The position numbers and the translations under genes are program-made. Under the pieces are notes generated by a model. The model saw only the letters and a program-made list of their open reading frames with translations, made no database searches and was not told the origin of the DNA. Positions 15,941-48,992 of a DNA stretch of 64,000 nt are shown here, piece by piece. Numbering within the stretch: the first letter of the stretch is position 1; each line of letters opens with the position of its first letter. The stretch is from Jaapia argillacea MUCL 33604 (lineage: Eukaryota; Basidiomycota; Agaricomycetes; Jaapiales; Jaapiaceae), in the NCBI GenBank assembly GCA_000697665.1, contig KL197711.1, forward strand, positions 1,044,325 through 1,108,324. Direction: 5' to 3'.

Positions 15941-16082
15941 CCAATCAACAAAGTCACCTGATGATTATTGTATTTCAGCCGCTCGACAGCTGCATGAGTG
16001 TGCAGAACCCCCGGCCTCCCCCAGCTCGTAATTCCAGGTTGCTATGTGCCAGGGGAAACAGTGACAGATATGGTACACGACA

Positions 16083-17562
16083 TCAAGGCTCTATCTGAGG
16101 TCCAAACAAGAACCGAACAGTCCCCTCATTCCTCCCCAACATCGCATTCACACCAGCACTCTTCCCCTCCCCACCAACCTCCGCCTTCGAACTAGGCCCC
16201 CTTCTTCTCGACCGATGTTCCGTCTCCCTCATATGAATCTTCAACCTATAAAGTTGATCCGGTCTATATGGGATTGGTTGACCAGCAGCAGGAACCGAGG
16301 AAGACAAGTGTTGGTTTCGTGGAGACGGGTGAGGGGAGGGAGATTGAGGTGTGCTTGGTGAAGTGTTGGCTGATGGGTTTTGACAGGCTTGAATTAGGAG
16401 GTCGATTGTCGCATGGGCGATTTCTACAACAAATCAAGATTATTCCATCTGTTTTATTAGTGATGAGGTATACGTCCACTCACCCTCGATGTCTTCGACA
16501 TGAGCTCGAAACTTCCTTTCCCAGTCACCATGATGACTCAATATGTTTGCAATCTCGTGACTGCTACTGTATCCCTTCCGTTCCGGCGACGCTCCTTGTT
16601 CAAACGAAGACAGAAGAGCAGCAAGATACAAGCAACCAATCGCAACTTCATGGGGTGGATACTCAAGAGACACAACAGTGCGTTGACTAACGCCAAAAAC
16701 AAAATCAGCAAGCGAGATGACAACCAAAAGATACACCGTACCTATCAACGGCGAGCCTCCAAGCCAATTTCGTCAACTTCTTAGTAGCTATCTCAAATAT
16801 TAAAATCATCATCAAAATCATAGTGAAAGACCAATGTTCACCTCGAAAAGACCTCCCAACCTTGATCACATACGGGAACGGTAACCTCGACGTAAAATTA
16901 AAACAAATCATCTCCAAAATCAACCTCTCAACAGCCAACAACCGTTGTCGATCCTGCTCAACCGTCTATCCAAAGCCACCATAAGTAACCCCAAAGACTC
17001 ACTCCCCGGAAACTTGTGAGAGAGCTCACCGCAGGATCCATATCCACTTCCCCAAGAGACCTCGATTTCGCAGCGAGGTCTGGGAACCGAACGGCATATG
17101 CTACCATCAAGAGGTCTCTCGGTTTCTTGAGCGTGTCGTGCATCTTGGTCGAGACGTAGAGGGCGGCGAGAGTGACATCCTATAGCTTGTCATCAGCGAA
17201 GTGAAGGGAAGCGACGATAACACGTATACGCACATGATAACTAAAGTCTTTCCGAGGGAAGAACAAATGGAATCGGTGGTAAAGGTTTTGAGCAGTAGCA
17301 ATCGTCTTCCTAGGGCTTCACCCAAAACAAAGGCGTCAACACCTCGCTCTCCACCAACCAACAACAGAAAGCCGACATACAAGCCAATCTTGGCACCAAT
17401 AGCTTCAACGAACCCACAAGCCTGCTGTCTCGCTTTCTCCTCCTGGTTTATCGAGAGCTTTCCACGTTGTTTGTCAGATAGCTGCTCTACTTCTGTTGGC
17501 GTGAAGTAGGGATGATGGAATTTGGAGGACGAAGAGGGTTGCGAAGTGGATGAGGAGTCCAT
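16083..17562 (-). CDS. CTK2: CTD-kinase cyclin subunit (Ctk2-like)
   Basis: Seven exons: 17562-17381, 17315-17234, 17179-17030, 16965-16842, 16787-16742, 16686-16484 and 16423-16083, giving 375 aa in frame. It is the cyclin partner of the kinase that phosphorylates Ser2 of the RNA polymerase II C-terminal domain during elongation. Diagnostic blocks are HHPYFTPTEVEQLSDKQRGK, TIATAQNLYHRFHLFFPRKD, ALYVSTKMHDTLKKPRDLL and ERLILEMICFNFTSRLPFPY, followed by the second cyclin fold KKLTKLAWRL and EYPPHEVAIGCLYLAALL. The tail is Ser/Pro-rich, then basic. The start was chosen because MDSSSTSQPSSSSK leads directly into the conserved block; an upstream non-coding exon is possible. Confidence 0.85.
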
Positions 17563-17780
17563 AGCAAGTGGAAGTGACGGTGTAAGAAGGGCGGTATCTG
17601 GGGTCCTCGATTACCTTTGTTCCAACTGAAGTCACGAACGAAGCAGTATGAGTCTTCGACAACCATACCTGGCAAACAACAACGATGAACTGGATACTTG
17701 TATTTCAGACTATGCCGGCCTAATCGGCTAAGCCAGTACTACTACTGCTCTGTACGGTATGATGTATCTCCCCCCTTCCC

Positions 17781-20039
17781 TTACCTCCCCCCCTCCCCCT
17801 CCCACCCAAGCACCCCACCCCAACACCTCCACATCCTCTCCACCACTCTCAACTTCTCCCCCCTCCCCAACCCCACCCCCTCCAAATCCTCCACATCCTC
17901 CAAAAACCCCTCCCTCACCCTCGAACCCACCGGCAAACACTCCATCGCCCACTTCCTCAAATGCGCCAACGATATCAACATCAGACCTGATGTGAGTGGC
18001 GGGATCGTTTGTGAGGGTATAGAATTGGGAGGGATGGAATGGGGTTGGGAGATTAGTAGTTTCTCGATTCGTCTGTTAACGATGCGAGGTGATCAATGGT
18101 CGAAATTTTTGAAAGTAGGGGGAAGAGGATGTACCGCATAGCAAGCCAAACCCCACCCCTCCTCCTCCTCCCTCCAAACTTCCCCCTCCCCTTGCCCCCC
18201 ACCCAAACATTCCTCAAATATTCACCAATAACGTACACAACAGCAAACGCAGGTGCAACACCCACAAACGCAAACGTCAATTCCTGTGATTTCAAAAGTT
18301 TGTCTATACCAGATAGAGCTTGATCTATATCCACCTATAACACGCGTCACTCAGCAACGAGAAGGAGGGGAGGGAGGGAGAAGAACGGACCTTGGCTTTT
18401 TGAACCTGAATAAAAACTCCACGGAGGAGTGTACCAGCAACAGCAGATTTCAACGGGCTCTTAATATCCTCCTCATAAATCTCCATAACAGGAGTCAAAT
18501 CCCCCACCCTAATATGCCTACTCAGCTCTTCCAACTGTTCCGTTCCATACCCTAACTTATCTCTCGCAAGCGCCAACACCATCCTCTCCAAACTCTACTC
18601 CAAAAACCCACATCAGCACCTCGTCCAATCAAAGAACGCAAAGAAAAAAAAACCCTCACCTCCTGATCAGCTTCAACCCCTTCCTTACTAACGATCACCC
18701 CACCCTCCCCACCAGCTCTAACAGTCCTAAAAACGTCCCTCAAAGGATCCACGATCCATCCCCACCAAAATCCTTTAACAGTCTCCCACCCATCCCTAAC
18801 CATCTCCTCCAACCCTCCCCTCTCCCTCCACGCCCAACTTGCAGCGTATACGGTTAGAGGCGGGAGGAGGAGGAGACGGGGCCAGAGGAGGGTGAGGCGG
18901 GAGGGACGTAGGAGGGAGGCGGTGTGGAGGTGGGAGATGTGGGTGGAGTTGTGGTTTGGGAGAGTGTGATTCGCTAGGTTCGTGATGGAGGAGAGGATGG
19001 TGACGTGTGGCGAGTTTGACGGGCTGAGATCTTCGTGCTGGGGTGATGCCGACAAATCCGCACCCCCACTCACAACACGTTCAAGTGTCAAAACGAACTC
19101 CAACAACTTGTCCTTATCCCCTCCATCCTTTCTCTGTTCCTCAATTGCACAAGCCAACTCATCCCTCAAAGCAGATAAAACCCCAAGACTCTCAGCCCTC
19201 TCATTCCTAACCTTCTCCAATTCCCTCCTTTTATACTTACATTCTTGACGCGTGAGTTCCACAGGTAGGTTCACAAACGCCGAGACCCTCGAGAACGACG
19301 CGACGAGGTTTTGGTAAAGAGATATAAAAGTGGTTCGATGGATGGAGATGTGAGGACGATGGAAGGATGATTTGGATAGTGAGAGTGAGAGGGAGTGGGG
19401 GTGAGTACGGATGTGGGGGAATAGAGAGCTTGAGAGGATGTTTGGGTGAGAGGTCTGTGTGGAGAGGAGGCGGTTGAGTTCGGATGGGTAGAGAAGACGA
19501 AGGCGGAGGGGGATTTTTTGTGCGTGGATAGCCTGAAGGATTGTTTGGGCTAACTGTAAGAGACGTCCCGGGAGGGCTGGAGGGGTATGTCAGCGTAAAC
19601 ATACGTTCTCCATGAAACGGAAGGAAGGAAAAAACACACTCTGCAAAAGATAATATGCAACATTGGTGGAGGACCGTTCGACCTCACCCCACCACTCAGC
19701 CTCCGTCTCCGCATCACTAGCCTCAGCCAAATAACTGTCCAAAGCCTCTGCATACAACCCGACAGTGATCCTGCCAAGAATAGCAGCCTTGAGCGCAAGT
19801 TCTTCGGGATCGTGACCACCTGCAGAAGACGCGACTTCCGGGGATCGTTCGAGAGCCTGGAGAGATTCTAGAGTTTTGCGTACGGTGGTAGAGGTGAGAG
19901 GAGGTTGGAGGGAGAGCAAGATAGAACTGAGTTCATGTTTTGTTGGTGACGGGGATGAGAGAGATGAGAAGGATGGCGGGGAGGCGGGGATGGAGGCGAG
20001 GATGAGCGGGTTCGTGTGGTGCCCGACAAACGTGCTCAT
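17781..20039 (-). CDS. NCA2: Mitochondrial NCA2-like protein
   Basis: A multi-exon gene. The start MSTFVGHHTNPLILASI is at 20039 and the stop at 17781. NCA2 is a mitochondrial membrane protein that in yeast helps control ATP6/ATP8 expression. Family landmarks are LELTRQECKYKRRELEKVRNERA-like sequence near 19240, a first membrane segment LLLLPPLTVYAASW near 18830, the WGWIVDPLRDVFRTVR block, EEDIKSPLKSAVAGTLLRG, QALSGIDKLLKSQELTFAF with a second membrane segment (FVGVAPAFAVVYVIGEYL), and RRIEKLL near the C-terminus after a phase-2 junction near 18060-18125. The region 17790-17960 is extremely C-rich on the plus strand, which biases its codons. It lies head-to-tail with the Ctk2-like gene, about 219 bp away. 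Confidence 0.85.
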
Positions 20040-22944: not shown

Positions 22945-23494
22945 TGTTGTTGGCGGCGGCGTTGGTCGTGTTTGTGCAATCGGAATCAGAGGGCTGCAAT
23001 GCGAGCAGATGGGCGAGGATAAGACGGAGAGTACAGAGGATGTGTCGACGATGTGCTGACGCCTGCGACTCCGAGAGACAGGAACAGACAAAACTTCCCG
23101 CAACGTGGGTCGGCACTAAACCCTAACCCCAGGCGTGTTCAGCCACATGCTCTCCGAGCCCGACAACCACCTGCAGCACACATTTCCGCAAGGGTGCCAC
23201 GGCTTTTCGTAGAGGGATCTCGGAGCCAATCAATAGGCGAACGGTCACCCTGACACTACAACGATGCTGCCTATTCCTATTCTAGCAGAAATATGTTGGG
23301 ACTGCCTGAGAGGCGAATTGGGTTCGAGATTCAAGTGTACCGTTTTACACACCAAGCAGTGAATTGGTTGCAAGGTTATGTAGAAAGATGCAATCACCAT
23401 CCAGGACTCCTGCTCTCGACTTCCGGGTGCAATGCTGTGGGCGGTAACGGGCGCAATGGAGGAGGGCGGTGGCTGAAGGATCATCATGTCCATC

Positions 23495-23600
23495 CTCTGC
23501 TCGTCCCCTCCCCTGATCCCGAAGGTGTCTTCGTTGTCATTGACGCCCAAAGAAAGGACGTCGTCCGAGTCCCTATCGTGAGTTTCTCCTTCTAATGCCC
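23495..23600 (+). pseudogene. Fragment of the small membrane-protein family (exon 1, 3' half)
   Basis: The frame reads HPLLVPSPDPEGVFVVIDAQ and then RKDV, matching the end of exon 1 in the five larger copies, down to a GTGAGTTTCT donor. Nothing upstream resembles the conserved start, and I found no downstream exons in the following kilobase. It is therefore a remnant rather than a gene. Confidence 0.6.
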
Positions 23601-24500
23601 TTTTATCCTGTATCGGTGCTGCATCAGTGGCACTCCGAGTTGGCCATGGGTGACGTGACGCCTTACTAGTTCGAGATGGTCCTCGTACCTTCCGACTTCT
23701 GACCGAGTTCAAGGTAAGTACTCGTTGGTTTTCCAGCCCTCTGGACCGAATATTTCTCAACTACCCTTCGGAATCTTGGTCATTGCGGATGAGCACCCTC
23801 AAATATTTCCCCTGAACGCAACGGCGAGTATGCTCTCGATAAAATTCAACACATGACTGTTTCAGGGTCAGGGACACTCACATTTTCGGATAGGCATTCT
23901 TGGAGTGTCAGGAGGGACCACCGTTTGCGGTAGCGACTACCGTTGGTGTTGATTGGTGACGAGATCCCTCTAAGAAGGCTACGTCCGCTGGCGGTAATTC
24001 AATTGTGATTATTGGGGCATGCATGTGGAAATACTGCGAGGCCTATGTCAGGCCGTCAGATGTCGCGGTTACGCCGGGCAGCGAGTACTTTCCACGCGAG
24101 CCCTGAATTGGGGCTCAAGGCTAGAACACGGTCCTGACCCACGTTACTAGACGTTTTGTGGCACTAATCCGTTCCGTCTTTCGGAATCGCAGGCAGCAGC
24201 ACATCGTCGAAACATCCTCTCGTACTCTCTCTACAACGACGAAACCACCTTCCTGATGAGACGTTCGATCCATGCAATACTGAATGACTCTGCCGGTATT
24301 CCCTTTTCCGCATTTCTGTCATAAAATTCTTCGCCAATATACTTGGTCCTCTCCTGTCACTCGTCGTCGAGAAACAAACATTTTTGAATTATGAAGACAC
24401 CGTTCTATTGCACAACAGTCCTATCCTAGCAACCCGTGCGTTCGGTATATACAAACGATAACAAGAAGACAGCACTATATCTACAAAACTGACAATGACA
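23601..24500. other. Intergenic, mostly unexplained; includes duplicated 3' flank
   Basis: No gene supported. From about 24262 to 24527 the sequence is the 3' flank of membrane-family copy A. It is closely related, in inverted orientation, to 49692-49945, the 3' flank of copy B. Confidence 0.5.
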
Positions 24501-24527
24501 ACACCTTTTGCACAGTAGACAGAACCA

Positions 24528-25227
24528 CTACACGGGTGAGGCATCAACTTGACTACCCACACTAGCCCTCATATTGACCACCTTGGTCCAAACAGCTCGC
24601 ATGCAAACACTCATCACGACAGCGGTAATGATGGTGGCAAAAGTGAGGAAAGGATAGGGTATGAACCTCCCTATCATCCAAACCGACATCAAGACCGTTC
24701 CCCAAGAAGGGATGGCGTTGATGACCGCAAACTTGCGTAGTCCCATGGCATGGACCCGACCCTGGCCCATCATTGAGATCAAGAGCGTGGACCGAGGGTA
24801 TAAGCTCACCTGTACTGTGGGTGTCGGAACACCTTCGAGGTAGACCCGAAGTGTGAGAGCGAGACATGCCAGGGCGCATGTGATGGAAGCGCCAACTTTG
24901 TCCTCGATGGTGGCCTGGATCCTGTGAATGAGTCAGTCAAATAGTCTAATGAGAGGACGACGGGAGACGAACGCGAAGAGAGCCAGTAACTGGGTCAAAG
25001 TTGAGGTTAAAATCTGAACGAATAAATAATATCGGGCGGTGTGGTTAGAAGTGACTGACGATAGTAACGGCATCCTTTCTTTGCACGTCAATGACTTTGA
25101 AGACACCTTCGGGATCAGGGGAGGATATGAGCAAAGGATAGGCAGTCAGATCGAGCGTCTGACGGCCGGCAGCAGTGGACTGGGAGATGAAGAGACTGCG
25201 GAGAGTGGAAAGAAAGTTGGAAGGCAT
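24528..25227 (-). CDS. Small multi-pass membrane protein family, copy A
   Basis: Exon 1 starts MPSNFLSTLRSLFISQSTAA at 25227 and ends at the GTGAGT after ..QRKDAVTI. A short exon 2 (LLALFA-type), exon 3 with the YLEGVPT motif, and exon 4 (MGLRKFAVINAIPSWGTVL to the stop at 24528) follow, as in copy B. The sequence predicts about three hydrophobic segments in exons 3 and 4. I do not recognise the family; five copies plus a fragment occur in this window. A TATA-like box (reverse of CTTTATAC) lies near 25290. The 5' flank runs toward the assembly gap. Confidence 0.6.
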
Positions 25228-25803
25228 GGCGGTGGAGAATATTGGGAGGGTTCATCTTTGCGACGTGTTGCTTGCACCTTTATACTATGTCGCCCAGGAC
25301 GCAGTGAAGAAGCAGCTTTGGCCAAAATTTGGAATGCAATTAGGAGGAGCAGTGTGGGAGCGGCCCGATCGAGCAAGATGCTGCTTCTTCGTGGGAACTC
25401 TGTCGTTGCACAAGGAAGAACCACCCCAACAGTAAGTAGTAGCCAATTCACCGTAAATACAATGGCTGCCTTTTACCTCGGTTCTAACCGATGTCATCGT
25501 GAAAACCGGTCGGAAATTCCAATTACTTAGGGGCTGATCGCAATCAACTGGAATACGTAAAATCCCTGAAAATCCCTTGCAATATCTACAATCGCTCACC
25601 TCTCTAACGCATGCATTCCTAGTGCATTGCAATTCTATTGCGTAGTATTCTAACACTATTCTACTACGATTCCAACCGGTCCCAACAGAAGGCAGATCTC
25701 CTGAGGACCTGGGCTGAGCCACTTCCACCCCCTTTGCTCGGGCGCATGAGATACGATATTTAGGCAATAATAATAGTATTATTGATGGGAGTACGAGAAA
25801 ACA

Positions 25804-26807: not shown

Positions 26808-26816
26808 GGGTGGTGG

Positions 26817-27081
26817 CAGGCTCCTTAAACCATCCGTCGCTACAGCGTTCTCACTCATTCATCTGAGGGCGTGAGGCGAAGTGGCAACTTTGTTTGTACA
26901 TATGTATAGAATTACTATATTAGGCCAAACAAGAGGAGGAGAATGCTGTAGGACGGCTGGCACAAATGGTCATCTGAGAATTCGCCGATGCTGACTCAGA
27001 CGACATATCTGGTCAAACAAAACATCAAGAAACATCAGATATTTCTTTTGTTTGTATCAGTTTATTCCGTGCACCCCCCCA
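26817..27081 (+). repeat. Left terminal inverted repeat
   Basis: About 265 bp, matching the reverse complement of 32669-32934 with only scattered substitutions (for example CTCACTCATTC versus CTCACTCCTTC). The inner edge is a C homopolymer (GCACCCCCCC). Confidence 0.9.
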
Positions 27082-27187
27082 GCCGACGTCTGAAAATTGT
27101 GACACCATCACATTCACTCCATAGATCTTGCAAAGTCATTCACCTCCCCGATGCCTCGTTGTTCAGGGTACATACCCCGCCCTGACT

Positions 27188-30003
27188 ATGTGTAGATACA
27201 AGATGTGGATGATACAATTTTATGTCCATCGTGAACTGAGAAAACAGTTTTGGTCGAAGAAGTCCTCTCCAGCCTCCCCCGAATTCCTCATGCCTCTCAC
27301 AACGCAAAACATAGACGATATTCTCAACATTCTTGAGAACAGCCAGGCAACCCTTCCTGAATTGCTGTTGACCCTTCTACGGGAAACCAACTGGAGGGTG
27401 TGGGGTGGGGTGAGAGAGTTCCTTTCTTGTATGGAGCAGGTCTTCGAGGCGGTATATTCATATCCGGGTGGGCGAGAGGTGGCGTCAAACTGGGCGCACA
27501 AGATAGTAGTGGAGGAATGTCGCCTTGAGATGCTTGCCCTCGCGCATAAAGACGTGGGTATGCACTTCTCAGCGCGGCGAGCGACACACGAAAGCTTGGT
27601 CGAGTTCGACATTGAAGCCATGGCCGAGGTGATCGCAAAGACAGTACCTAGGCTTTGGCGGCTCTTCGGTGTCTTGCTTTCGGCTGACAGCGAAAAGATA
27701 AAACGGCGGCAGCAGCAGAGGAAGGTGAAGGCAGGTGTGAAGAGGCCTTGAGAGGATGGGCTGGAGGCGGACAGCGAAGACGAGTATTGGCAGGAAGATA
27801 ATATGCCGCACATACCTGAGGATCCTGAGGACTCTGATAGTGAGCACGACATCCACGAAGAGGATAGACAGCGGCAGAAAATTCTGACCTTGGTGAGTCC
27901 TGAGTTGTGCCTGTGTGATCAAACCCTGCATTGGTTGACGGGGTTTCGTACTGTAGAAATGGACAGCTATGATCAGCATTGCGGCAAACAGCACAAATCA
28001 ACTGTGGAACACCTTTCAGACCTTGAATGGAGGCTACATGCACGCTTGCAATACTCCTGAGTCCGTTATCGGTTACCAATCCAAGATTGGCCTCTCGATC
28101 TCCCCCAGCGCAATAAATGACTTGGTGACCAGCTTGGGTCGGGAGGCGTCATATTCAATCCAAAAATTGGGGTGGACATTGTTAACGTCGTATGCCTATG
28201 ACAACTTTGACGTCGAGATCAAACATTCAGTCCCGACCGTTGACAAAGCACAAGAAACCTTACTTCATCTGACCTCTGGCACACTAATTCTGCTTGAACA
28301 CGGCGTCACAATTGATGACCTCTGCTGTTCCAAGGAGCTATGGAGGAAATCAAAAGTCAACCCCGTAAATTTCAAGATGTCGAAAATGATAGACTGGAGG
28401 AAAGTACTCACATTACATCCTGAAGGCGTGCATCCCTCAGGCCTCACCCACCGTGAGCGATTCAATACGTGGAAGTTCACCCATGATTTGGTGATGCATG
28501 GGCCAGAATACTTCCACCAATTCCGTGGGAAGCTAGGGCATCCCGAGACAATCGACACAATACCTATTGTCAAATCAAAACAGATTCCCGTGCGAGGAAT
28601 GGACATCAACCAGAGCACAGTACAGGGTAATTGCAATGCACTTACTGATTTATTTGGACAAGGGGGTGTGGGCGATCCGGAAGTAAAGAAAGGTGTTCGC
28701 GACATGGGAGACCACGTCGTCCTCGTTCACAGTGACTTGGCAACATGCGAGCGAGTGCAAGGCTTACAACAGTCTTGGGTGGGAGAGGACACCCCTTGGC
28801 TTCAATTCCAGTTTGTCGTCTTCGTCCCCAGGCTATTCCACTTGAAGATGGCGGCTGCTGATGCGATGTGGAAGATTTTCATCTTCCCCAAGAAGGCCCA
28901 CGAAGATGACACAAGTCTATTTAAGCAGGTTAGCCAGATTCGCCCGAAGGAAATGGGAAAGATCGCAAGTAAGCCTGGATTTCGCCGTATGCACGAAATA
29001 ATCCACCACTGTGGTGCAGCTTCTCGCTTGAATGCCTGGGCAACGGAGGTCATGAAGCGGCATCCCGAGATCATGGAGCTTGAGGAGTGGGAGCTGGAGT
29101 GGGAGGAACTGGATGAGATTGCAAAGGTTCTCATCAAGGATTATGTGGCTGATAACGAGTTGTCAGCTAAAAGATTCTCTCCCGCGAAGGAGTGAGATCC
29201 TCAATGGGAGAATACATTGCTGAAGGAGAAATGGTTCCTGCTGTACGAGGAACTCAGCCATGCGATGAATGTGGGAGACATCGGTCGGGTGGAGGACTGC
29301 TTAAAGTCGTGGATATTTATTTTCAGGGGGTGCAGGAAGCATAAATATGCCAGCCAGATGGCAAAGTTCTTGCATGATTTGTATTTTGTATACCCTGAAT
29401 GTTTAAGGTGAGTTTATTCGATACTATCCAAAGGATATACAATGAAAACTCACAATCTGGGGTCCTAGGCGCACAATCCGAATGAATATCTTGTGCAACC
29501 CTCAGGGAAAGGCCAATCACTTCCGAGCCATTGATTGGTGGGTAGAACTCAATAACTTATACATCAAGGTGAGACTCAATGGTGATCGAAATTCGGCAAA
29601 CCCACTGAATACATGAAAGAGGATATATGGAAGTCAGTTCTCAAACCGTACAAAGGCCCGAATTCTCAAACAGTCCACGCTTATCGAAGTGTTCCGAAAT
29701 CTTCAAGGAAATCTTGAAAAGACATGTGCCTTAAGCCGTCGATCCTACAAACATTCGCCGCCAAAAATGCAGAGAACCTTTCAGAAACTGAGAGTGTATA
29801 TGAAGATTTCCAAAACTCACCAAGTGGACCTGACACGGACAACATCTCATGTCATCCTGGACTTTATGGAGGAGGGGATGATGAAGATGATAGCTGGGGT
29901 ATGTCAGGATGGCGAAGCGGATGGTAGTGAGGAAGGGTGGGTGGATGCGGAGGGTGAGGCCAACGGCGAAGACAGGGATATCGAGATTGATACCACCGAG
30001 TGA
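27188..30003 (+). pseudogene. DUF6589 protein gene, interrupted
   Basis: Agaricomycete DUF6589 proteins are large, multicopy and of unknown function; a transposition role is inferred here from location. Recognisable blocks in order are LPELLLTLLRETNW (27360), SMI-type TAMISIAANSTNQ after an intron ending at 27955, LTSYAYDNFDVEIKHSVPTV (28186), HLTSGTLILLEHGVTIDDL, AMNVGDIGRVEDCL (29262), ILCNPQGKANHFRAIDWW, and SRRSYKHSPPKMQRTFQKL (29735). The frame is continuous across splice joins except for two TGA codons, at 27749-27751 and 29193-29195, each read through by homology on both sides. An Arg CGA codon would fit both sites. The true start is uncertain; 27188 is the first suitable ATG. Confidence 0.75.
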
Positions 30004-30323
30004 TGTCCCGTGCTGTAGTCTGCCGATGAGGTATTAACGAATTGATCTTGGGGTGTGTAGCGAGATGACAAGACTTGAGCTGGTGGAGAGGGCATCAGAA
30101 ACGAATAAGGGCTGGAAAAGGGGCACAAAATGATAAATACTGTTGATAAGGGGATTCCGTGCATGCTCGTGCTCTGGATGATCTGGGCGAGGGGCGTTAC
30201 TTGTTGGCAACAAGTTGGCAATGTTGGAGGGTGTCGCGTTTTCGTTACCGTTGCCATGAGCAGTGGCAGCAAGTTCTGCGCGGCGGATACACTCTTTGCT
30301 GCGTACTGAGAGAAAATGTCAAT

Positions 30324-32604
30324 TCAATGAAGAAGAGTAGATGAACAGGGATGCGTACCAGTGTGACCTTTCTGCCTGCACCTGCCACACGTTGGTGGAG
30401 CGCGAGTCCTTGGTTTCTTGGCGCCACCATTACTATCTGGTGGGTGAGAGAGTGGTGTAGCAGCAATGTTCTGGTTTGAAGGTTGTGGGGGGACGGGACA
30501 GGGTATGATGGACTCAATGAGCTCGAGAAGAGATGAGCCATACTTATCGATCCATTCGCTGTTCCATCCAGCCTCTCGCTTGAGGTCCTCGAGGCTCGTC
30601 AACTTGTGGGCTTGAGCGCAGTCAACCAATCGCTGAACCACAGCCGTTGGGAGGAATAGGTTTCCACTGAAGTTCCTGAAAGTCATCAGGTCGAATTCTT
30701 TGATGCACCCGTCGTTTCGCCACTCCAAAAGCACGGTACAGAGAGCGACATGAGACAAGCCTGTTTGATAAGGCTTGATGTGTGATTTCTTCATGGTTGT
30801 CGAAGACTTGACTGGGGGAGGGGAGACGAGATAGAGAAATTGCGTGGGGGCACAGAGATCACAACAATAAAGAGGAAGTTTTTGCGAACAATGCCCGCAG
30901 CCCTCGGGAGACGTCTCATCACATTTGTGGTGGTCAAACTCTGATAAGGTGTGAGAACTACTTCCAGCCTTATGCAGAAAGAACGCACCCCGTTTGTCAT
31001 TCTCGTACATGAGCATTGGCACTATACGTCTGCACTCTATCCCCCTACTGCCTGCGTTGATGAGATCGTCCATCGCCGGTTCTAACTTCCACTTTGCACT
31101 TGATGATGCGCTCCGATTCTCCAAACACCTGTGATACGTGAGGCGTTGCTCTTTGTTGAGGGCATTAATCTGCCTGCTTGCTTCGGAAACCTCTGTATCT
31201 TCCCCCTCAATTTCTGCGTTGTCCTCCACATCTGGCAACTCAGCTCCTGTGTTCTGGATGTCCTCAGAGACAGATCCTGGAAGCATTGTCATGCTGGTGT
31301 TTTGTGGGCCGCAACTGCCTGAAACAGCCACTCGTTTTGGAGCTGGAAGGTCTGCTGGTTGGCCAGCCGCCTTCCGCTTCTTCTTTGCTGCATTCTCTCT
31401 CCTCTTCGCATTTGCCAACAAGATTGTGACACCTTGTCTTCCATCACCACAAGCAGCCCGACCAAACCACTGCCATAAGGTATTCAAGGTTCTTGGGGCT
31501 CTCCATTGGACAACAATCTCGATATCAGGTAAATCCAATCCCTAATAAGAGGGTGTGAGATTCGAGGCATTAACAAGGTGCGCTTCGTAACGTACCATAC
31601 CAAAACTGTTGGTTACACAAAGTCCAAATGTGTCACCCTGCATCAGAGCCTGAAACTCCTTGTCTCGGTAATATGAAGACATCACAGAATGGAAATGTTT
31701 GACTTTGAACTGGATATTGTCAGGTAAGCGATTCTGGAGGTGTATTGTCGCGTTTCCGGCCTCCTGCCTGTTGTCGAAGAAGACAAGGAATTTTGGAGGG
31801 GCCGGATCAGTGTCGGTGAGGCCATGTGGAATCAGGAAGTCCAGGTCCCGGAAGTCACCTTGGTGGTGGATGCGATTGACAACCAGGCTAATGTTCGGAC
31901 GGTCGTTGGAGTGTAGGAAGTATTCAGTGTGAGCTGCTCGGAGCTGGAGTATTTCCTTAACATCGAGAAGTGTTGGAAGAGGGAGGGTGGTGGAGGTGAC
32001 ATAGAAGGGAACTATGTGTGGGATCATGTATTGAAGACTCCCAACCTGCGCGTACTGCTTGCGAAACGAGCTCCATTCACTGATACAGTGACCCTCATCA
32101 AAAACAACATAGAGTAGCTTCGAGGTAAACTCTTGTTTTCGCCACAGCTTCTCGAATCGTCCATTCTCCTCCATTAGAATCTCAGGGTTGACCACAATCA
32201 CTCAATATTTTCCAGCTGCAACATCCTATTTGTACATTAGCTGGGAAGAGTAGGAGACAAACAAAGTAATTTCTAACCTTGAAAGTCTCGTCACTGGAAT
32301 TCTCAGCTTCGATGGCCACCCCACTGATATTGGCCTTGGTGAGCAGATTAACATTCTGCTTGCCCAAGAGGTTCAACGGTGTGACGACTATAATTAGTTT
32401 GTCCTCGTTCTCCTACAGAGCCATCAGGAGGGGAATCCAGAACGTTAGTGTCTTTCCCATCCCGGTTGCAGCAACAGACACGACATCTTTCTTGTCCTCA
32501 GCAAGAGCTTTTGCAATCTTCAGTTGGAAGAGACATGGTCGTTTCCCCAGTTTGGCCTTCATGAGGTCATGAATCCTCTTGAAAGACCATTTTGACAATG
32601 TCAT
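30324..32604 (-). pseudogene. RecQ-like DEAD-family helicase gene, interrupted
   Basis: The order of motifs is that of a RecQ-like superfamily 2 helicase. They are a Q-motif-like start FQLKIAKALAEDKKD, Walker A AATGMGKTLTFW (32480), VVTPLNLLGKQ, a DEAH-like box DEGHCISEWSSFR (32080), TSTTLPLP, FHSVMSSYYRDKEFQALMQG, and motif VI as IVVQWRAPRTLNTLWQWFGRA (31500). The C-terminal half has Cys/His clusters (CGHCSQKLPLYCCDLC and CGRCRQKGHTG) common in mobile RecQ copies. Two stops break the frame: TAG at 32413-32415 within LMAL-ENEDKL and TGA at 32202-32204 within AGKY-VIVVNPEIL. An intron near 31548-31590 is otherwise intact. It is convergent with the DUF6589 gene. Confidence 0.8.
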
Positions 32605-32668
32605 TCTTGTGCGTAATGTGATGAGATTAGACTTTAAATGTTAAGTGTGGTGGATGTGACTGGACACT

Positions 32669-32934
32669 GGGGGGGGGTGCATGGAATAAACTGATACAAA
32701 CAAAAGAAATATCTGATGTTTCTTGACGTTTTGTTTGACCAGATATGTTGTCTGAGTCAGCGTCGGCGAATTCTTGGATGACCATTTGTGCCAGCCGTCC
32801 TACAGCATTCTCCTCCTCTTGTTTGGCCTAATATAGTAATTCTATACATATGTACAAACAAAGTTGCCACTTCACCTCACGCCCTCAGATGAAGGAGTGA
32901 GAACGCTGTAGCGACGGATGGTTTAAGGAGCCTG
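32669..32934 (-). repeat. Right terminal inverted repeat
   Basis: Reverse complement of 26817-27081. It ends GGAGCCTG at 32934 and is followed immediately by the 9-bp TSD copy. Confidence 0.9.
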
Positions 32935-32943
32935 GGGTGGTGG

Positions 32944-34300
32944 TCAACGTCAATGTCGATGATGGCGAAGGAAAGAGACGACAAAAACAAGACATTGGAA
33001 CTCCGACGTCGAACTTGAACCAAGGTGCACATGAGCCAAGTAGATCAGAATGTTGAAGTCCACCAAGGAGGTTGGGATGCCATCCCAATAGCTTTGAATA
33101 CAGAGCGATATTCGAGGGGAAAACCAATTGCATTGCAACTGCTTGCAATTCTTCCCAATATTTTGACCCTGTCGCAAAGCAGCTGCACACACGTCACAAC
33201 CAATCGCAACGCCTTGGAATCTCGCGAGCCTATCGCAATCATTCCAATCTGTCAGGATCTGCAAGCCCTTTCCTCGATGCGTTATGCAAGCAGCCCTTTG
33301 TAGCAACATTCTATCATTCTACCCTCAGCCTCGCAATTTGGCTCTCGGGTCTCAGGTCACCCTTGCCTCTTCGACTTCTTTCCTGCTTCTTTCCTGTCTA
33401 ATCAGAGCTCGACCTAGAGGTGTCAAACCTATCTTATTAATAAGATAGATTTGATACCAACTGCAACCCACTCCAGACCTTGCCTCCATCTCCCACCCCC
33501 CCCCTCCAAGTCGCGGACCTGTGAATGGACAGCTAGATCTTCGCCGAAAAATCTTGTAGTGGGTATTGAGACCAGATATTGTTGTAGAGTCTTGGAGTGG
33601 GCAGATTGCATTCTTTTTTGCACAAGGACATAGAACTCAACGAGTAGCCCAAGATTCATCAAAGGTTCGCAGCAAACAGTGCAGTATTCGTCGAGATAAA
33701 ATTTGAGCAAGATTGACAGTCAAAACGAGCCTGAAGACGTGTGAGAGGAGTGCCAACCTGTGCCGACTGCTCTGAAACAGCAAAAAGTAACCTGGGTATG
33801 GAAAGTCAAACCAAGCACAAAGAACGTGTGAGAGATGCGAGTGCCTGCCAGATATAGACAGGTTCGAAGCAAGCGCGAAGAATGCGTGAGAGATGCGAGT
33901 GCCAAGTCCCAGTTTGATTGGTCCAACTGAGATGAGGCACAAGCCATGCGAGAGTGATCGAAGGGCACTGCCGCCATTGCAATCTAGAGCAAGTATGTCA
34001 TGGGACCTGGTGGACCAATCTATGGACTTGTGCCATTTAGAATTATCTGATGTCCCGCGAAGTCTCTGGGGAGACCGTGGACCATTCTGCAGAGTCTGAC
34101 TTAACCTCTCTCCACACTGCTCCGTCCACTCAAACACCCATGTTACCCTTGAATAAATCGGTCACATCTTAGCTTGATCTTGGGATTACCCCAATTGCTG
34201 TCTCTCCCGCTCCCCACCCATATATGTTAGCAGCTCAAAGAAGTCTCACTTCCTCCAGCTGCACAACCAATTCATTGCAGTCCATGTCTGCCCTCTCCCG
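32944..34300. other. Non-coding repeat-rich stretch between transposon remnants
   Basis: No gene supported. It contains a T/A-rich perfect 20-bp palindrome (33429-33448) and a degenerate ~60-bp minisatellite (about 33735-33905). Short open frames here mostly translate the minisatellite. Confidence 0.5.
33735..33905. repeat. Degenerate ~60-bp minisatellite, left array
   Basis: Units contain GAGAGATGCGAGTGCCTGCC, then a GATATAGACAG core and TCGAAGCAAGCGCGAAGAA. About two clear units and one decayed unit are visible. The same unit recurs at 48600-48795, 15 kb away. A nearby 25-bp segment (33916-33940) is the exact inverse of 48568-48592. Confidence 0.6.
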
Positions 34301-34599
34301 TATCATGGGGTGCTATTGGAACACTCCTCGCCTCATTTGCAAGTGCCTGTGTCCCCTGGGATTTCGGCTCCCCCCTCCTGGTTGATTCTACTGGCCCACC
34401 CATGGTATGTAGACCCTCTCTGTGTGATCCTGTGGCGTTCAAACAAATTTATTCGTTTTCTAGTCTATTTTCCACTGTTCTCCAATCATTCAGGCATACC
34501 GCCCTTATTCTCCCTGGCAACATTTCAAACCATGGCTTCGTATTTTTGGGTATTGCAACCCCCTCTGCCCTCTCTGGCCATTAATCCCCCCCTCCCGTT

Positions 34600-37500
34600 G
34601 TTCACCTTCGTTGCCTCAGTCCCACACTCATTTTATCTCCATGTCCACCCCCTCCCCCTCCATACCCCTCCCACTTTTATCCCCAGCTATTTCACACAAT
34701 GTGCAGATAAATCGGGAAACAACCCTCAAAGTCCTTTATAATTACCCCCCCAGCACCATCATTGAGTATCCTGAAACCAGCGAGGGAGGCCATATCGGCC
34801 ACCTTTTTACCTTGTCCCCTGACAGATGGGAGAATCCTGTCTCCAGTTTTGTGTACTCTCAAGGGGCTCCGAAGGGTTCGATGAAAAGTGGGTGAGAAGG
34901 GAAGAGCCTATTCTGTCTGGTGCTTGTGGATGGAAAAGGGGAAATGGTCCCATGTTGTATCTCACATTCAACTTGTATGTATCTCTGCAATGAATTTTAA
35001 TGAAAACAAATCTCGTTCCTTACTCAATGATCAGGCCAAGGGCTCAAGTGTTGCCCCTTTGGTGACCTCTCAATCGTAAGGGTTCCACATTGCACAGCCA
35101 CCTGAGAAGACATTGAACTTCGCCTGGCAAGAGACAAAGCCTCCCGGAAGTACTTGGGTACCCCAATGCACGATCTGTTTGAAAAGACACTTGCTCTGTG
35201 GTCAGCATTCCAAGATCTCGGCTGTACAGGTCCACTTTTCGAACCAACGACCTACACTTCAGACGAGAATACTAGGCGCAAATTATGGTTGCTCTTGTTG
35301 GAGAGGGTTCAGAGAGGTCACGAACCAAGGGCGACATGTGATGGCCACCTACTTTTCCAACGCAGCAAGGTGGGGAAGCCATATGTTCGGTGAGCAAACT
35401 TTCATGACATTTACCGTGCTGAGGTTGATTTCTTGAAAAATGCAAACATTACAACTGTTTCAGCAATGGGACCACGGCTCATTATATCAGCTATGATATC
35501 AATGAAAGTTCCTACGATATTGATTACCTGGAGGCACTCTTCACCGAAGATACAGACGAGATCAAGAGAGTTGAAGACCTTGCCAACCAATTTGGATTTG
35601 GCCCTCTTGCTCCTTGCCCAACAGTTGCAAACTTTTCTTCAAATCGCGTCTGCTGTCGTATGTTCCGCTCCCTTTTTGAACTTACCAGCACTAAATTATA
35701 GAGTTTTGCAGCTTGCGAACATCGTCTAGAAGATGGGAGTCTCTCACATGCTGAGCTGGATGTCCTTGCATGCTGCAGCAAACTTTGCATTTTCATGCCT
35801 CTCCCTGAGTATCAAGAGCGCTGTCCCAAAGTTCTCGTTGTATGCCACAGGGAACATTCACACCTACCTCCTAGTCCTTCGAAGACACCTATTTTCATCC
35901 AAAATGAGATCATTCAGCTCATGCAAACCCTTCAATTCGATCTCCCAGACCTCACCCCTCGACGACTGCTCTGTCACCCCAGCGTCCTATCATACATACA
36001 GCAGCGCCTACCCGACACACTCAATCCCACAATCAGCGGCCTTCACTCATCACTCACAAACCAAGATCACCTTCGGGTCTATATTTCCCAAGCCCAAGCA
36101 GAGAGTTTTCCTTGAGGTACAGGTTGGGAAGGTATGTTCAGTGTATCAACCTTATGTTCTCTGGAGAATACTGAAATTTCCAGTTTTCAAGGTCTCTTGC
36201 ATCTGAAAGGAATTCAAGACACGACCCTTCTCCCCCATCAGCGCTATATTAGATATGTTACCGAGCATCCTGTAACCACTTTAACTCTTGACGAAGAAGA
36301 GGAACCCGAAAATCCAGGCCAAAACCTCAGGATCGTCGTCTGCATGAGCCTGGAGGGGAGCTGACTTTTGCTTCGTAGTCAATATCTCCAGTGCGATATC
36401 AGCTTCAAGCGCATTGTTGGATTTCGGGAGTTTGCCCTTGGTGCATTAGACCGAGATTCAAGACAAAGTGAGTGGAAATTTTCTCGACTTCCTCCATTGA
36501 CAGTTCAATCAACTCACCAACCATCAACTCTGGGTAGGTATTGTCTATTGCCGAGCCTACACAACACACCAGAGCACTGTGGCTCACCGCCTCATTTTCC
36601 AGACCATGGAAAGAATAGTCAAAGCAGATACCAGACAACATTTACGTTGGCGTCACATCCATGGGAGCCATGCGAATGACCTCACTGGAATTCTTTTCTT
36701 CACTGGAGATCAACATGGCGGGCAGGGCAAAGGTTCGTTTATCCACTGTTATGTCACTCAACTACTCAGCCTCAACTCATCGCGTCAGGATTAGGTACTC
36801 ATCTTCAAGATGTTGCCATGTCTGTCCCAGATCGACCAGATTTCCATGAACCCCACAGACTGTTGTCGAGCCTCAGCCCATACGAGCACTTGCATTGAAT
36901 ATTTCAGCTTTGTAATATTCACTCAAGACGAAACATCAACACGACCCCTGTCCCTGAACTAGTGAAGAATGTGATGCGTAGTCTCGATTGCCTCAAGCAT
37001 GATGATTGGGATGGGGCAATACAGATAGTCGAGGCTGAGGGAGGGAAGGCGGGAGCTGGTGGATGTCACTCTACTCCTCTCATAGACTCTCGTCCCTCAC
37101 TGAAGGTTCTAGACTGGGTGCGGGACAAGACTCGCAGTGGATTTGCATTCCCCGGGATGTGTTGGGCAAAAAGTCACATACCTAGGATTGTCTGGCAGGT
37201 AGGTGATTCGAATAGCAATCTCATAGAAACTCTCCACGCAGATGTGAACTGTGAGGGTATCTCATGCACCTTGGTGGGTGGGGTAAAAAAGGGCCTTGAG
37301 TTCGATAACCTGAAGGTGAAAACGGTCAAAGCAAGTATTTTGAATTCAGCTACATCTTGTGGTTGCTGAGAAACGGTGTTGTTTTGCCATTAGGTTTTCG
37401 ACAAGACTGGCATTTGGCACTCATACAACGGTGGACATCTCTCAAAATCTGTATCCAAGAATCTTCGTCGACGAGGTAAGTATCACTTTTCTTTGGGATC

Positions 37501-37829
37501 ACCTGGCTCCTGAACATCGTTCTCTGGTAAAGCTCGACAACGCTACAATGTCCTCAACCGACAGGACGACAAGATTCACGAACGCAACAAGAAGGTCCTT
37601 AAAGCCTGCCAAACTTTGACAAAGGCAGAAACTTGGTTACCGCTCACTGAACGGAACGGTCATGATGCTCTGGCTAAGGCAGAAAGGGCTGTGGTATGGG
37701 CTCGTGATGTGTTTGCAAAGGCTGTGGATGCCAGCTCAAGTGTGGTTGGGATGGGAAGTGGTAGGGTTGGTCTCGTCTTGCCTGCCTCCCAACGAAATGG
37801 TTTTCATGCAGGACAGTTTAGACAATAGT
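34600..37829 (+). pseudogene. MULE-like fungal transposase gene, interrupted
   Basis: Exon pieces match a multicopy Agaricomycete transposase-like family: IIEYPETSEGGHIGHLF (34762), LKCCPFGDLSIVRVPH, LWSAFQDLGCTGPLF, YDIDYLEALFTEDTDE, FDLPDLTPRRLLCHPSV, a DDE-type core CDISFKRIVGFREFALG (36391), WRHIHGSHANDL and TGDQHGGQAKG (36710), PYEHLHRIFQ, GKAGADWVRDKTRSGFAFPG, LVGGVKKGLEF and GSGRVGLVLP at the end. The candidate catalytic residues are the Asp of CDISFK and the Asp of DQHGGQ. TGA stops interrupt the frame at 34893-34895 and 35103-35105, in places where CGA would give Arg in context. Exon edges were not all fixed. Confidence 0.65.
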
Positions 37830-38239
37830 ATTCTAGGGTACACTCTTACAAAGTATAACGACTCTTCGTAGAATACCAACACTCTCATTATCACCCCCCA
37901 GGGTATAGATCATGGAGTGATCTCGAGAATAGCGTGATGGAGGTGATGAAAAACAGTGCCGCCGATGCAGCATGAGCCAACTCAGGAGTGTTTGATGACG
38001 AAAGACCATTGAGTTCCATGATAACCAGATGGGGTACGACGACAGTCCACTGGAGCTTCTTGACCAGGCACGCAAACATTAGAGAGAAGAAAGAAGAATG
38101 CTGGTATAGAGGACAAGGACAGTATACCTGGGCACATAGCTGAGAGCGGACGAGCGTTAGTAGCTTTGGCCTTGTTAGGGTGGGGTAACGAGGAGGCGAT
38201 CCCAAACTGATGGAGCCACTCTGCATAGATGGCAGCAGG

Positions 38240-38850
38240 CTACAGAGACAACAGTGACGAACCTTGAGGGCTTGGATGTCTGGGGTGTCGTCCTCATCGT
38301 CCTCCCTCTCTTCATCTTTCACCAATGCCTCATTAACGTCAACGACCACAGAGTCGTCCCCCATCTGGTGCCTCTCCGCCTCCTCTCATCCTGCTCCCGT
38401 TCCAGCTGATCCTCCTCGCTCCAATGCCCAACCTTCTCTGCCAACGGACCAGACACTTGCCACTCACAGGTCCCCATACTCCTATTGAAGCCGCCGACGA
38501 TCTTTGCTATACTGAGTCCAGCCCTCGTCATTCTCAGCCATCTCTGATGGTTCTGGCTGAGGAGCCTCTGACTCGCACTGCTCTCCTAGTCTTCAGACGC
38601 GTCGTGAGAGTCGAGGAGACAACAGTGATGAGCCTTGAGGGCTTGGATGTCTGGGGTGTCGTCCTCATCGTCCTCCCTCTCTTCATCATCCATCAACGCG
38701 TCGTCAACTCAACGTCAACGACCACAGAGTCATCCCCCATCTGGTGCCTCTCTGCCTCCTCTCATCCTGCTCCTGCTCCAGTGTATCTGCCTCACTCCAA
38801 CGCCCAACCTTCTCCAATGAACCCATCCCTCAGGTAAAGACTTGCAGCCA
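38240..38850. repeat. Direct repeats of the EST1-like 3' segment
   Basis: A segment beginning GGCTTGGATGTCTGGGGTGT occurs at about 38270 and 38640, roughly 370 bp apart, and a third diverged copy is at about 40337. All lie in the Asp/Glu-rich linker plus PIN region of the EST1-like gene on the minus strand. Confidence 0.7.
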
Positions 38851-39900
38851 CTCATGAGCATCATCTATGAGGTGAGCTCCTTGTGGCTCGTGATGTTATG
38901 TAGCTTTGGAGGGAGGGTGATGGGGGGAAGTTAGGGAGGCTAGGTGGGAGAGGGCTGTTGGATGGCAGGTTATGTATGTCTTGTATGGCAGTTCGAATTT
39001 TGGGATCTGGAGGGGCCGTTGTGATGGGTTTGGTCAGTAGGTGTGATGGACTAAGGGAGAGAGTGATGAACCTACGATTTCTAGGAATAATAACCCAACG
39101 TAATCCTCCCCTGTGCCTCCTTCAATAACATCCCCAAGCGCCTCCAATAGCAATCACAATAAGCATCACCAAAGATGCGCGTCCTCGTTTGTCATAGGTG
39201 AGGGGTGGGAGACTAGCACTAGCGCCGTGGAACTTGCGGAGCCCAGATGAAGAGGTTAAGAGAGTGTGCTTTGAGGGCGAGGGCGAGGATGATGGGGAAG
39301 GTGGGGAGTTGTTGAATGTGACGGCCTGTAGGGTGGGGAGTGGGTTAGTATGGGGTATGTGATGGGATGGGGGTGGCGCTTGTGTAGCAGGATTGAAGCA
39401 CCCTGTGGCAATGGGCCCGTATCGATATAAGAGCAAGCAAGCCCATACACCTGGTGGAGCAGACAGAGAATGAAAGTGGTGATTATGACAGAAAGCTCAC
39501 CTAAAGCCAAAGGAATATGGACATCTCGTATGAGACCCAAATCCGATGCCTACGGCCTTTCAGAAGAAAGGAGTTCGAGCAGAGCATGTGTCCTCTTGGA
39601 GACAGTGCAAGAGCTGGCAAGGAGTTACGATGGGAGCAGCAGTTTGCAATAAGGATTCTGTACACTCTGTGGAATCATTGTCGACAGGAGAAAGCAGCCA
39701 GATTGGACTCAGAGACAAGAGTGGAGTCCATTCCGAGGTGCCACATGGTGTTGTGTCGGGATTGGAGATCAATTGTCCTGGTAATTCAAAGTTGCTGTGG
39801 TGTAAGCCAATTTTTCGGGAGGCCAAGATAAATGCCCCATGATGCTCCTCCCCAACTTTCAGAGCTTAGGTGTAGAGCCCCCGTTCTCCAGCCCTCTCAG
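38850..39900. other. No supported gene; possible small membrane-anchored ORF
   Basis: This stretch separates the repeated copies of the EST1-like 3' end. A minus-strand frame (39122-39436) ends with a hydrophobic run (ASLVMLIVIAIGGAWG), but its upstream part is low-complexity Pro/Ser and no homologue is recognised. I do not call it as a gene. Confidence 0.4.
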
Positions 39901-42900
39901 AGAGTTAGTTGCATACACATCACATGGTCACACCTAGTCACACATGTGACCCACAGGATGTAAGGACTTTGAGAGATATCGAGTGGGTACAAATTTGGGA
40001 GGTGAAATACAACAGTGCTACCAACGCAGCATGAGACAATTTGGGGGTGTTTGATGATGAGAGACCGTCGAGTTCCATGATAACTGGAAAGGGTACCACG
40101 ACAGTCCACTGGAGCTTCTCAAACAGTGACGAAAACATTGAGAGAGAAGGGCAAGGTATGTCCGTGTCTGTGACAAGGACAGTATACCCAGGTACACAGT
40201 TAAGGAGCGGATAAGATGGTAGTGTAGATTTGGCCTTGAGAGGGGTAGGGCAACGAGGAGGCAAGCTCGAACCAATGGAGCTGTGCTGCATCGATTGAAG
40301 CAGGCTGCAGAGGCAACAGGCTGACGAGCCTTGAGGCTTGGATGTCTGGGGTGTCGTCATTGTCGTTGCTCTCTTCTGAGTCATCATCCACGAATGTGTC
40401 GTCCTCGTCAACATCCATGGAGTCTTCTCCCCATCAGGTACCTCTCCGCCTCCTCTCATCCTGCTCCTGTTCCAGCTGATCGTCCTCACTCCAACACACA
40501 ACCTTCTCCGCCAACAGACCAGACACTTGCTACTCACAGGTCCCCATACTCCTATCGAAGCCGCCGACTGATCTTTGCTAGACTGAGTCCAGCCCTCATT
40601 GTTCTCAGCCACCTCCGATGGTTCTGACCAAGGAGCCTTCGACTTGCACTGCTCTCCTCGTCTTCATCTTCATCCTCGATGATACCGTCAGTGACATCTT
40701 CAGATGCATCGCGAGTATCGACAACCTCCAACTCGACATGGTCTTCCGAACTACTGCTCTTGTTCCAGAAGCTGCACTCGAAGACTTTTCGACCAACCCA
40801 CTCCATACCCCTGATGCACCAGTCCTTGGGTAATGGCTTGCAGCCACTCGTGAGCATCAGCCATGAGGTGAGTTCTTCATGGCTTGTGATGTCCTTGGGA
40901 ACGACGGTAGAGAAAAAGTTCACGAGGTCCTCCCAGGGAACAGATCGCTCCATAATTTCAAGAATAGCTTGATGTTTAAGAATAGTAGAAAGGAACATGA
41001 GGATCACAGTAATGTAAGGATTGAGGGTGCTGTGAGCGAAGGGGGATGATTTGCGTGTTGGCTTCCAGAGGGTTTGGCTGAGCATAGCAAAGGTGAGTTG
41101 AAGGGCGAATTTGAGTGGCAAAGGGAGTTCAGAAGCCGCCGAATTGGACAAGGTGGGCGACGTCTGGATGGCGGTGACAACGGCAGTCTTCATCCGCTTG
41201 TCGCCATCAGCATCAACTGTGTCGTCGTCGACATCCATAGCCTTGTCCTCGGAATCAGCTTCCTTCCTTGCAAGTTTCATCCTCGCCATAGACGCGACGG
41301 GGACAGCAGCGCTGACGCTGAGACCGAGGGCACCAGTCTTTCGCAACATACCGCTGGGCCTGCCGTATTCCAAGATACTCCCAATGTTGACAATGGCCAT
41401 CATAATCCAGTCTCTCTCCTCGGCGCCATCCAAGTCGAGCCACTCCAAGAAACGATCCACGGTCTTCGGGAAGTCGTCCAGTTGAATGTTTGTGAAAAGC
41501 ATTCCATGCAAGAATACGAAGAGATCTTGGACGCGAGCGTCGGGTTGCGAACGTCAGGCTTGAGCGGTGGGGGACCAAATGGAGAGCACGGATTCACAGG
41601 CAGTTTGGAAGGGGTGAAGGGTGGTCATCCTATACATGATGAGCATCACATCTTATGTAGATAGAACGCGAAACACGCACCCTTTCATGAAGTGATAGAT
41701 ACTTTGTAAATCTTCACCCTCCACCTCTTGGGAGAGGAGCCTGAGATGATGGTGGAGCTTGCCTTCACCAGGCTTCTCACCCAGGCAGACTCATCATCGA
41801 TCCTCACAGCAGGCTTGTCACTGATGGACCCCTTCGACTTTGATGGGGGATTCGAATCTGATGTGATCAGAACTTGTGTGACAGCCTTCGCTGTTAACAA
41901 TTGCTGACCTTGCAAAGACGTTGCCTTCGAAACCATCTTGGTGACGACCATGCGATATCGTGCGAGGTCTCCAAGGCATTCCAGCCAGTTGGAGCGGTAA
42001 GCCGCCAACGTCTGCTCCTCCAAAAGACCGGTGTAGAAAGTGTATGCATAGTAAATAAACTCTTGGAGATGTTTGAAGGCAATGGGGGATCGACACGAGG
42101 CTCGGCGCAGGTTTTCGAGGAGCTTGTTGAAAGCGTGTGTCCAGAGGCGCATGATGATGTTATATTTCTGGGGAATATTGCAAAGGGATGCAGGGACGCT
42201 GGGCACGAGAGAAATCTCGAGGAGATTATGCATCATCTTGGCCAGACTGTGCAGACTGAATAAACACACCCGAGAGAAGACTAAACAAGTACTCACCATT
42301 TATGATCCTCGACTATCTTCCACCACCGCTCGTTCTCCTTCTCAGCCTCTTCATCCTTTGGCTTCACCTCCCTCGAGTTCCGTTGCTTGATGAGGAGGCC
42401 GGGTGCCTGCAACGAGTCCCTGGGAGCCTCGTCGACACCTCCGCCTTCCAAATCTGTCTCCTCGTGGATGACCTTGGTCTCGAGGCAGGAGATCACCCTG
42501 TAAAGCTTCTTTAATTGTAGAAAGAAGGTGTTGTTTGCACTGCCACTCGAATCCTGTGATGGCTTGCCATTCTGATCGAAGAGTGCAGATCTAGTGGAGG
42601 AACCATCAGTTGTACTTGACGAGAGTGTGAAACTTGATGATGTGAGGGAGTGGGCATAGGATGACGTGGATGATGCTGAGACGTAGTCACCTGAGCTCTT
42701 TGGAGTCGGTGTAGGCTGGCCAGAAGGTACAGGCCCTGCAGCCAGTCAGGCAAGGACCGAGAATCGAATGGGGTCGTCTTTGCAATGATTGAACAATTGG
42801 CGATTAGATGCCTAGTCACGGGAGTTTGGTGAGCCACGAGCGTGCTTTGCGTGGATGTATGAGCTACTTGATAAGGTGTCGGATATGGATTCCAGCTCTG

Positions 42901-44298
42901 CAGTCTGGCGCATCAGAATGGGATCAGTCTCGGGATTGAATAATTTACGAGGAAGGTCACTCCGGGGATGGGGTGATGTCCGTGGAGAGTTGCTAATTTT
43001 CAGACAACGAGAAAAGTCTTCGTGATCAGCCTGATGCTGCGATACGATGACACAGGGAGGGGATGTTTGTTGTTGGGGGTGAAGGTGTTTTCGGGGATTG
43101 TGGATTAGGGGGGTGGAAGAGGAAGGGTTTTCGACTGATGATTGTTCCTGTGGAGGGCGGGAGGATGCCGCAGTTGCATCTTGAGTGGTAGGGGTAGATG
43201 TGGGAACATGTTTTGATCTCTCTTTCTGGCAGAGGGAACTAGATATGAATGGCATGTTAACTCGATGTCGATAACAAAAGGGAGAGGGAGAAGAGATAGA
43301 GAATTAGAGAAATGATATATGACCAACTCCAGGGTGCTGCGAGTGCAGGTAACATATTATCCGCAAGCTGTCACCAATGCACAGTCAATCCAGCCATCAA
43401 AACTTGTCATGTCTCTGGAGTACATAGGGATGCACAGATCCTCAGAGTCACAACTAATCAACCATCGCTAAGGGAGGGGATCTCCCCACTAAACAAGAAT
43501 GCGCCGCCAGAAGCTGCTCAAAAAAAGCCGCCCATACAAAAATCATCCTGGACCCCTGGTTTGTCACGGAATGGCAGCCTGCATCAGCACCTTCCCAATG
43601 ATGCTGACCCCCTCCCGTCCTCCACAAGACCATAGTCGAAAATTCATGAATTTCATAACAAGCAAAAAGACTCACCCCGCAGTGCGGCATTGGAGCGTGA
43701 TTAGGTGTTCTGCCAAGTCAGTGGGAGCAGGGTCTCGCTGTTCACACTCCTTGCCTTTGGGGAAGGGCGAGTGATAGGGTCTTCATTCGTGGTTGCGATC
43801 GTCGACGATAGTGGAGGGTAGGTCAAGAGATAGGTGTTGAGTTCTGCTGCTTGATGAGGAGGCCCGCCACTCAAGTGCAAAGTCACAGTCATACAGTATC
43901 TCATCTCATCTAATCGTGGAAACGCGCAACATGGGAAACGTGTGATGTCACGCGTTTTCCGTTTACCAAGTCGCGTTATTAGTTGCGTTGTTTACTTTTC
44001 TTGTTTACCTGTTTCCTTGTCTGCCTCTTTCCTCCGTGCGTTGGCACACAAGTACGTGTTCATCTATGTTTATTTCCAATCTCCTCCATCTCCACCTCTT
44101 CCTGCTGGGCATTACAATGGCTTAAGCAGCCAAGCACTGCAGAAGGCCCTGAGAGCAAGTGATCTGGTGCATGTGCCCAGAAGCTACTCTCGGATGCGAA
44201 ACCTCATTCCCCCCCACCGACTCCTCTTTTTCACATTGTGTTCTCTCATATTTCTATTTGTTTAGGCTCATCTTCACACTCTTGTTTCTCCAGGTTCG

Positions 44299-45944: not shown

Positions 45945-46224
45945 GTAGCAGAACTGTTCCTGTATGTTGACCAGTATTCTCAATGATATTTTCATATGAT
46001 TTTGAATCGAAAAAAACAGTGGAAGTTGAATTCCACTACTCTAGTTACAATACTTGAGAGCCATACAACTACGAGAAGGAGTTCAAGATTATAAACACCA
46101 GGTTTGGAGATAATATCAAGTCGAAGATGGATGGGGGTGAAGCAGCAGCCAAGGTGTTCTAAGGAATGGTGGTGAGCAATCGGGGAATCAACGGGAATGG
46201 GAACGGAAACAAACCTTTACTTGA

Positions 46225-48940: not shown

Positions 48941-48992
48941 GTACAATGGGAACACATCGCAAAGATGAGCCCTCCCCAAAATTCTCCACGGC

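Follow-up and report, generated by a model that had tools for sequence, protein, structure and literature searches.

A transposon of 6,118 bp, bounded at both ends, lies at positions 26817 to 32934 of the window (the whole stretch of 64,000 nucleotides from Jaapia argillacea MUCL 33604 that was analysed). It is very probably a helicase-assisted transposon with terminal inverted repeats (TIRs), and we judge it likely to be a full-length copy of an AcademH-type DNA transposon that has lost its coding competence. It carries a gene of the DUF6589 family and a gene for a RecQ-like helicase (Table 1), both now broken. The DUF6589 protein is probably the transposase.

Table 1. Features of the transposon and its target site, in window positions.
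Feature	Positions	Strand	Family
Target-site duplication, left copy GGGTGGTGG	26808-26816		
Left TIR, 264 nt, starts CAGGCTCC	26817-27080	+	
DUF6589 gene (probable transposase), predicted model, 845 codons	27290-30003	+	PF20231
DUF6589 gene, exons	27290-27892, 27957-29407, 29469-29568, 29620-30003	+	
DUF6589 gene, three short GT-AG introns	27893-27956, 29408-29468, 29569-29619	+	
RecQ-family helicase gene, predicted model, 724 codons	30324-32604	-	TIGR00614, DEAD, Helicase_C
Helicase gene, exons (GT-AG introns between)	32604-32278, 32225-31596, 31541-30324	-	
Right TIR, 264 nt	32671-32934	-	
Target-site duplication, right copy GGGTGGTGG	32935-32943		

The two TIRs are 97% complementary (8 of 264 positions unlike) and are separated by 5,590 nt, their outermost bases reading CAGGCTCC...GGAGCCTG. 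A sequence-only reading of this DNA had put the repeats at about 265 bp; the pair is there, with a length of 264. When the terminal 15 nucleotides were sought in the window with up to three mismatches, the only two places found were the termini themselves, but 1.78 matches are expected by chance at three mismatches, so only the exact pair is informative. No second copy of the TIR was found in the window, and a search of the viral contigs with its opening 18 bases gave no match.

Both flanks carry the perfect 9-bp direct repeat that the same reading had reported at the outer ends; extension to 10 bp does not match. The G-rich 9-mer occurs seven times in the window (five times on the forward strand, twice on the reverse). 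Despite this, its duplication at the two ends is not a matter of chance, since only 22 of 2,000,000 random pairs of positions drawn from the window share a 9-mer. If the flanks are joined to recreate the empty site, two reading frames of at least 80 amino acids span the point of insertion. The longer of the two, 151 amino acids, has no Pfam family over the cut-off (best E 0.16), and that search, which covered the longer frame, gave no sign of an interrupted host gene.

Within these boundaries, the expectation of a single bounded mobile unit containing the helicase and only one other gene, the two arranged convergently, holds up. Both genes possess introns, and neither has a second copy in the window. 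The 15 further ORFs of at least 80 amino acids that lie wholly inside the element have no Pfam family at E 0.1; one more crosses the right TIR into the flank.

The spliced DUF6589 protein, whose start codon in the model is our choice, matches PF20231 with an E value of 6.1e-98 over profile positions 19-410 of 410. Taken singly, exons give 4.5e-45, 8.7e-22, and 2.5e-4, the last of these under the Pfam cut-off. At E values up to 10, a limit at which HMMER filters remove most matches above about 0.1, the spliced protein has no other Pfam family among its listed matches. Codons 154 and 614 of the 845 (positions 27749 and 29193) are stops that interrupt the reading frame. Single-sequence AlphaFold models of the protein have low mean pLDDT values, 36.6 for a piece of 485 amino acids and 31.6 for one of 278, too low for the models to be informative about the fold. 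Among solved structures there was no relative of DUF6589; the best matches, MHC class II alpha chains with E values of 0.14 and 0.38, are ascribed to chance.

The helicase gene is broken by two in-frame stops, the 64th and the 117th of its 724 codons. Its product matches DEAD (E 1.2e-21) and Helicase_C (E 2.4e-11), both over the Pfam cut-offs, and a single exon suffices to match PDB chains of RecQ, WRN, and BLM. It also matches the recQ_fam model TIGR00614 (E 4.7e-39), but at 134.5 bits this lies under the model's cut-off of 219.8, and the predicted protein is therefore RecQ-like rather than a standard RecQ. Three stretches are presumably the expected helicase motifs: GMGKT (Walker A), DEGH (motif II), and QWFGRAACG (resembling motif VI). 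As the two genes are modelled, neither full protein can be made from this copy.

The sequence-only reading knew of no description of the pairing of DUF6589 with a RecQ-like helicase, and judged a 9-bp target-site duplication (TSD) with long TIRs to fit neither hAT nor a classical MULE neatly. The novelty so implied is not borne out, because AcademH, reportedly described by Kojima in 2020 (Mob DNA 11:15), matches in TSD length, type of helicase, and range of hosts. According to the accessible text of one source, AcademH encodes a helicase and has TSDs of 9 or 10 bp, those of AcademX being 3 or 4, and the difference is seemingly tied to the encoded helicase or nuclease (PMC10045372). The hosts of AcademH are given as Basidiomycota, Ascomycota, and Mucoromycota in the portion seen of a second (PMC10799480). 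A survey covering 625 fungal genomes reports, as far as its available text goes, that 1,568 of 1,938 Academ copies (81%) had recognisable domains, among them DEAD/DEAH (PF00270) and recQ_fam (CDD:129701), and that the copies were frequently annotated as host genes (PMC6416283). The present element shares with AcademH the TIRs (here 264 nt, 97%), the helicase (here with DEAD and Helicase_C over the cut-off and TIGR00614 under it), a TSD of 9 to 10 bp (here exactly 9), and a basidiomycete host, a likeness drawn from published descriptions of TSD, TIRs, helicase, and host range and from a single copy. Like fungal Academ copies, it has a RecQ/DEAD helicase. Its length also lies not far from that of bivalve Academ elements, which average 5,565 bp in a partial view of the source, Academ elements being long in general (PMC10294476). 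AcademX, of the same superfamily, has a nuclease in place of a helicase and TSDs of 3-4 bp; it was rejected in view of the 9-bp TSD and the lack of a nuclease family over the cut-off among the element's Pfam matches, apart from the helicase's own match to ResIII, which is of helicase type.

What, then, is DUF6589? Pfam keeps it as a family of unknown function. Because it is the only recognised gene in the element besides the helicase, it is probably the transposase, and we infer that it is homologous to the transposases of Academ. The proposal that DUF6589 serves as the transposase of a helicase-assisted transposon thus survives by elimination, although transposons of that kind are already in print, as AcademH. 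The spacing of motifs may hint at a putative catalytic triad, consisting of the D of YDN at 28197, that of HSD at 28728, and the E of WWVELNN at 29536.

If so, the DUF6589 protein would act as a DDE-type transposase, binding and cutting the long TIRs and then joining the excised DNA to a target cut with a 9-bp stagger, with cut-and-paste the most likely mode. RecQ helicases move with 3'-5' polarity, and the helicase of the element may separate strands or remodel ends during excision, integration, or repair.

An undescribed superfamily might instead be at hand, one built on DUF6589 that acquired its RecQ helicase independently of AcademH. The term DUF6589 was not found in the literature searched (Repbase or other papers may contain it), Pfam lists the family as without known function, and the spliced protein brings up nothing else in Pfam at E values up to 10. 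Against this, the length of the TSD, the type of helicase, the long TIRs, and probably the group of hosts all coincide with AcademH, and we think such a superfamily unlikely. Slightly less likely still is its broader form, in which DUF6589 would be the catalytic protein of a distinct superfamily found throughout fungi, with its own recruitment of RecQ, so that helicase assistance combined with long TSDs would have arisen repeatedly.

Mutator-like elements (MULEs) typically have long TIRs and a 9-bp TSD, and a MULE that captured a helicase would account for the 264-nt repeats and the 9-bp duplication seen here. TSDs of the IS256/MuDR group are put at 4 to 10 bp in the accessible text of PMC10045372. 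A MULE is nonetheless very improbable, as the spliced protein lists only PF20231 at E values up to 10 and neither a MULE transposase domain nor any other transposase family. The helicase is a further difference from MULE/MuDR elements.

One might equally suppose that DUF6589 and the helicase are cargo or host genes, moved in trans by a transposase encoded elsewhere. Nothing speaks directly for this; both genes are broken, so that the present copy would need help in trans to move. No third gene is recognised inside the element, and fungal Academ copies themselves carry such helicases, by the available text of PMC6416283. This too we hold to be very improbable.

A Kolobok element of the KolobokH or Kolobok-1_CCri type would pair a RecQ helicase with a DDD/E transposase, as the present element probably does, and the accessible part of PMC9587614 describes KolobokH from fungi only (with the helicase downstream of the transposase domain) and Kolobok-1_CCri from a red alga, in which, as in this element, RecQ is encoded on the complementary strand; but the Kolobok TSD, by the same source, is the 4-bp TTAA, in contrast to the 9-bp GGGTGGTGG, and this assignment is scarcely credible. 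Both MULE and KolobokH fit worse than AcademH. KDZ and Plavaka elements, DNA transposons frequently found in mushroom genomes, may likewise carry an accessory gene, but theirs is of the TET/JBP kind, going by the text seen of PMC12730594. The length of the TSD rules out Plavaka (2-3 bp), Zisupton and one Dileera family (8 bp), and also hAT (usually 8 bp) (PMC12730594).

Seven of the eight differences between the TIRs are CpG/TpG/CpA transitions. The element as a whole is depleted in CpG (observed/expected 0.69), and TpG plus CpA is raised (1.25). Similarly low CpG ratios (0.53-0.70) are seen in the 4-kb blocks between 28001 and 48000, and 24 of 92 windows of the element's size taken outside it have a lower ratio than it does; the loss of CpG therefore looks like regional decay by deamination of cytosine and not a mark specific to the element. 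With CpG-type sites excluded, the TIRs are unlike at only one position out of 264, and this points to an insertion of fairly recent date.

The zone from 28001 to 48000, where TpG/CpA is raised to 1.20-1.26, is probably a decayed, methylated region rich in transposons; the remaining 4-kb blocks of the window have CpG ratios of 0.79-0.94, except for 16001-20000 (0.685). Within the zone, an ORF at 45339-45941 on the forward strand resembles TET/JBP dioxygenases (PF12851, E 3.8e-6, 26.7 bits, cut-off 34.9). Since TET/JBP-like genes are carried by several fungal transposon lineages, according to the accessible text of PMC12730594, a second mobile element may lie nearby. This ORF, the short introns, and the presence of DUF6589 are in themselves indications of a basidiomycete host. 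Also in the zone, at 37939-40666, a segment is directly repeated in two to three copies that are 71-91% identical and about 370 and 2,060-2,070 nt apart, and at 39941-40663 there is a weak match to a PIN domain (E 0.0033, under the cut-off). Elsewhere in the window, diverged direct and inverted copies of a repeat family, 61-96% identical depending on the piece, occupy 24262-25269, 48951-51319, 52193-54798, and 56727-57651, and pieces of the family recur at 23487-23601 and 62077-62191. Matches to proteasomal ATPases and AAA proteins lie close by, at 54739-56178, and the family is perhaps a locally duplicated cluster of genes.

Relatives of DUF6589 were sought in collections of viral, phage, plasmid, and prokaryotic sequences. 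Three protein queries gave four, seven, and six pattern matches in viral contigs, and 27 pattern matches were found in genome contigs; none of these was confirmed. Searches by tblastn against plasmids and phages found no relative. One degenerate DUF6589 motif picked out 20 stretches in viral contigs, for which, together with a piece of phage DNA, tblastn with the DUF6589 protein gave a best E of 0.60. The sole match that covered the motif (E 5.3) faces longer frames on the opposite strand and was taken as chance. Neither the 14 control genomes nor the single phage record scanned yielded PF20231, a result that does not amount to absence. In the literature, the string "PF20231" led to sources unrelated by title, and the occurrence that was opened proved to be a chance string in the name of a database. 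The link between DUF6589 and a transposase of the Academ type apparently has not been printed in the literature searched and may be new.

Taken alone, the element is probably an unremarkable and decayed representative of a group already described. What is useful in it is a hypothesis for the annotation of DUF6589. If DUF6589 is indeed the Academ transposase, then a family so far without a known function could receive a new name, and the DUF6589 genes in fungal annotations, along with the copies of RecQ that adjoin them, would represent mobile DNA and not genes of the host.
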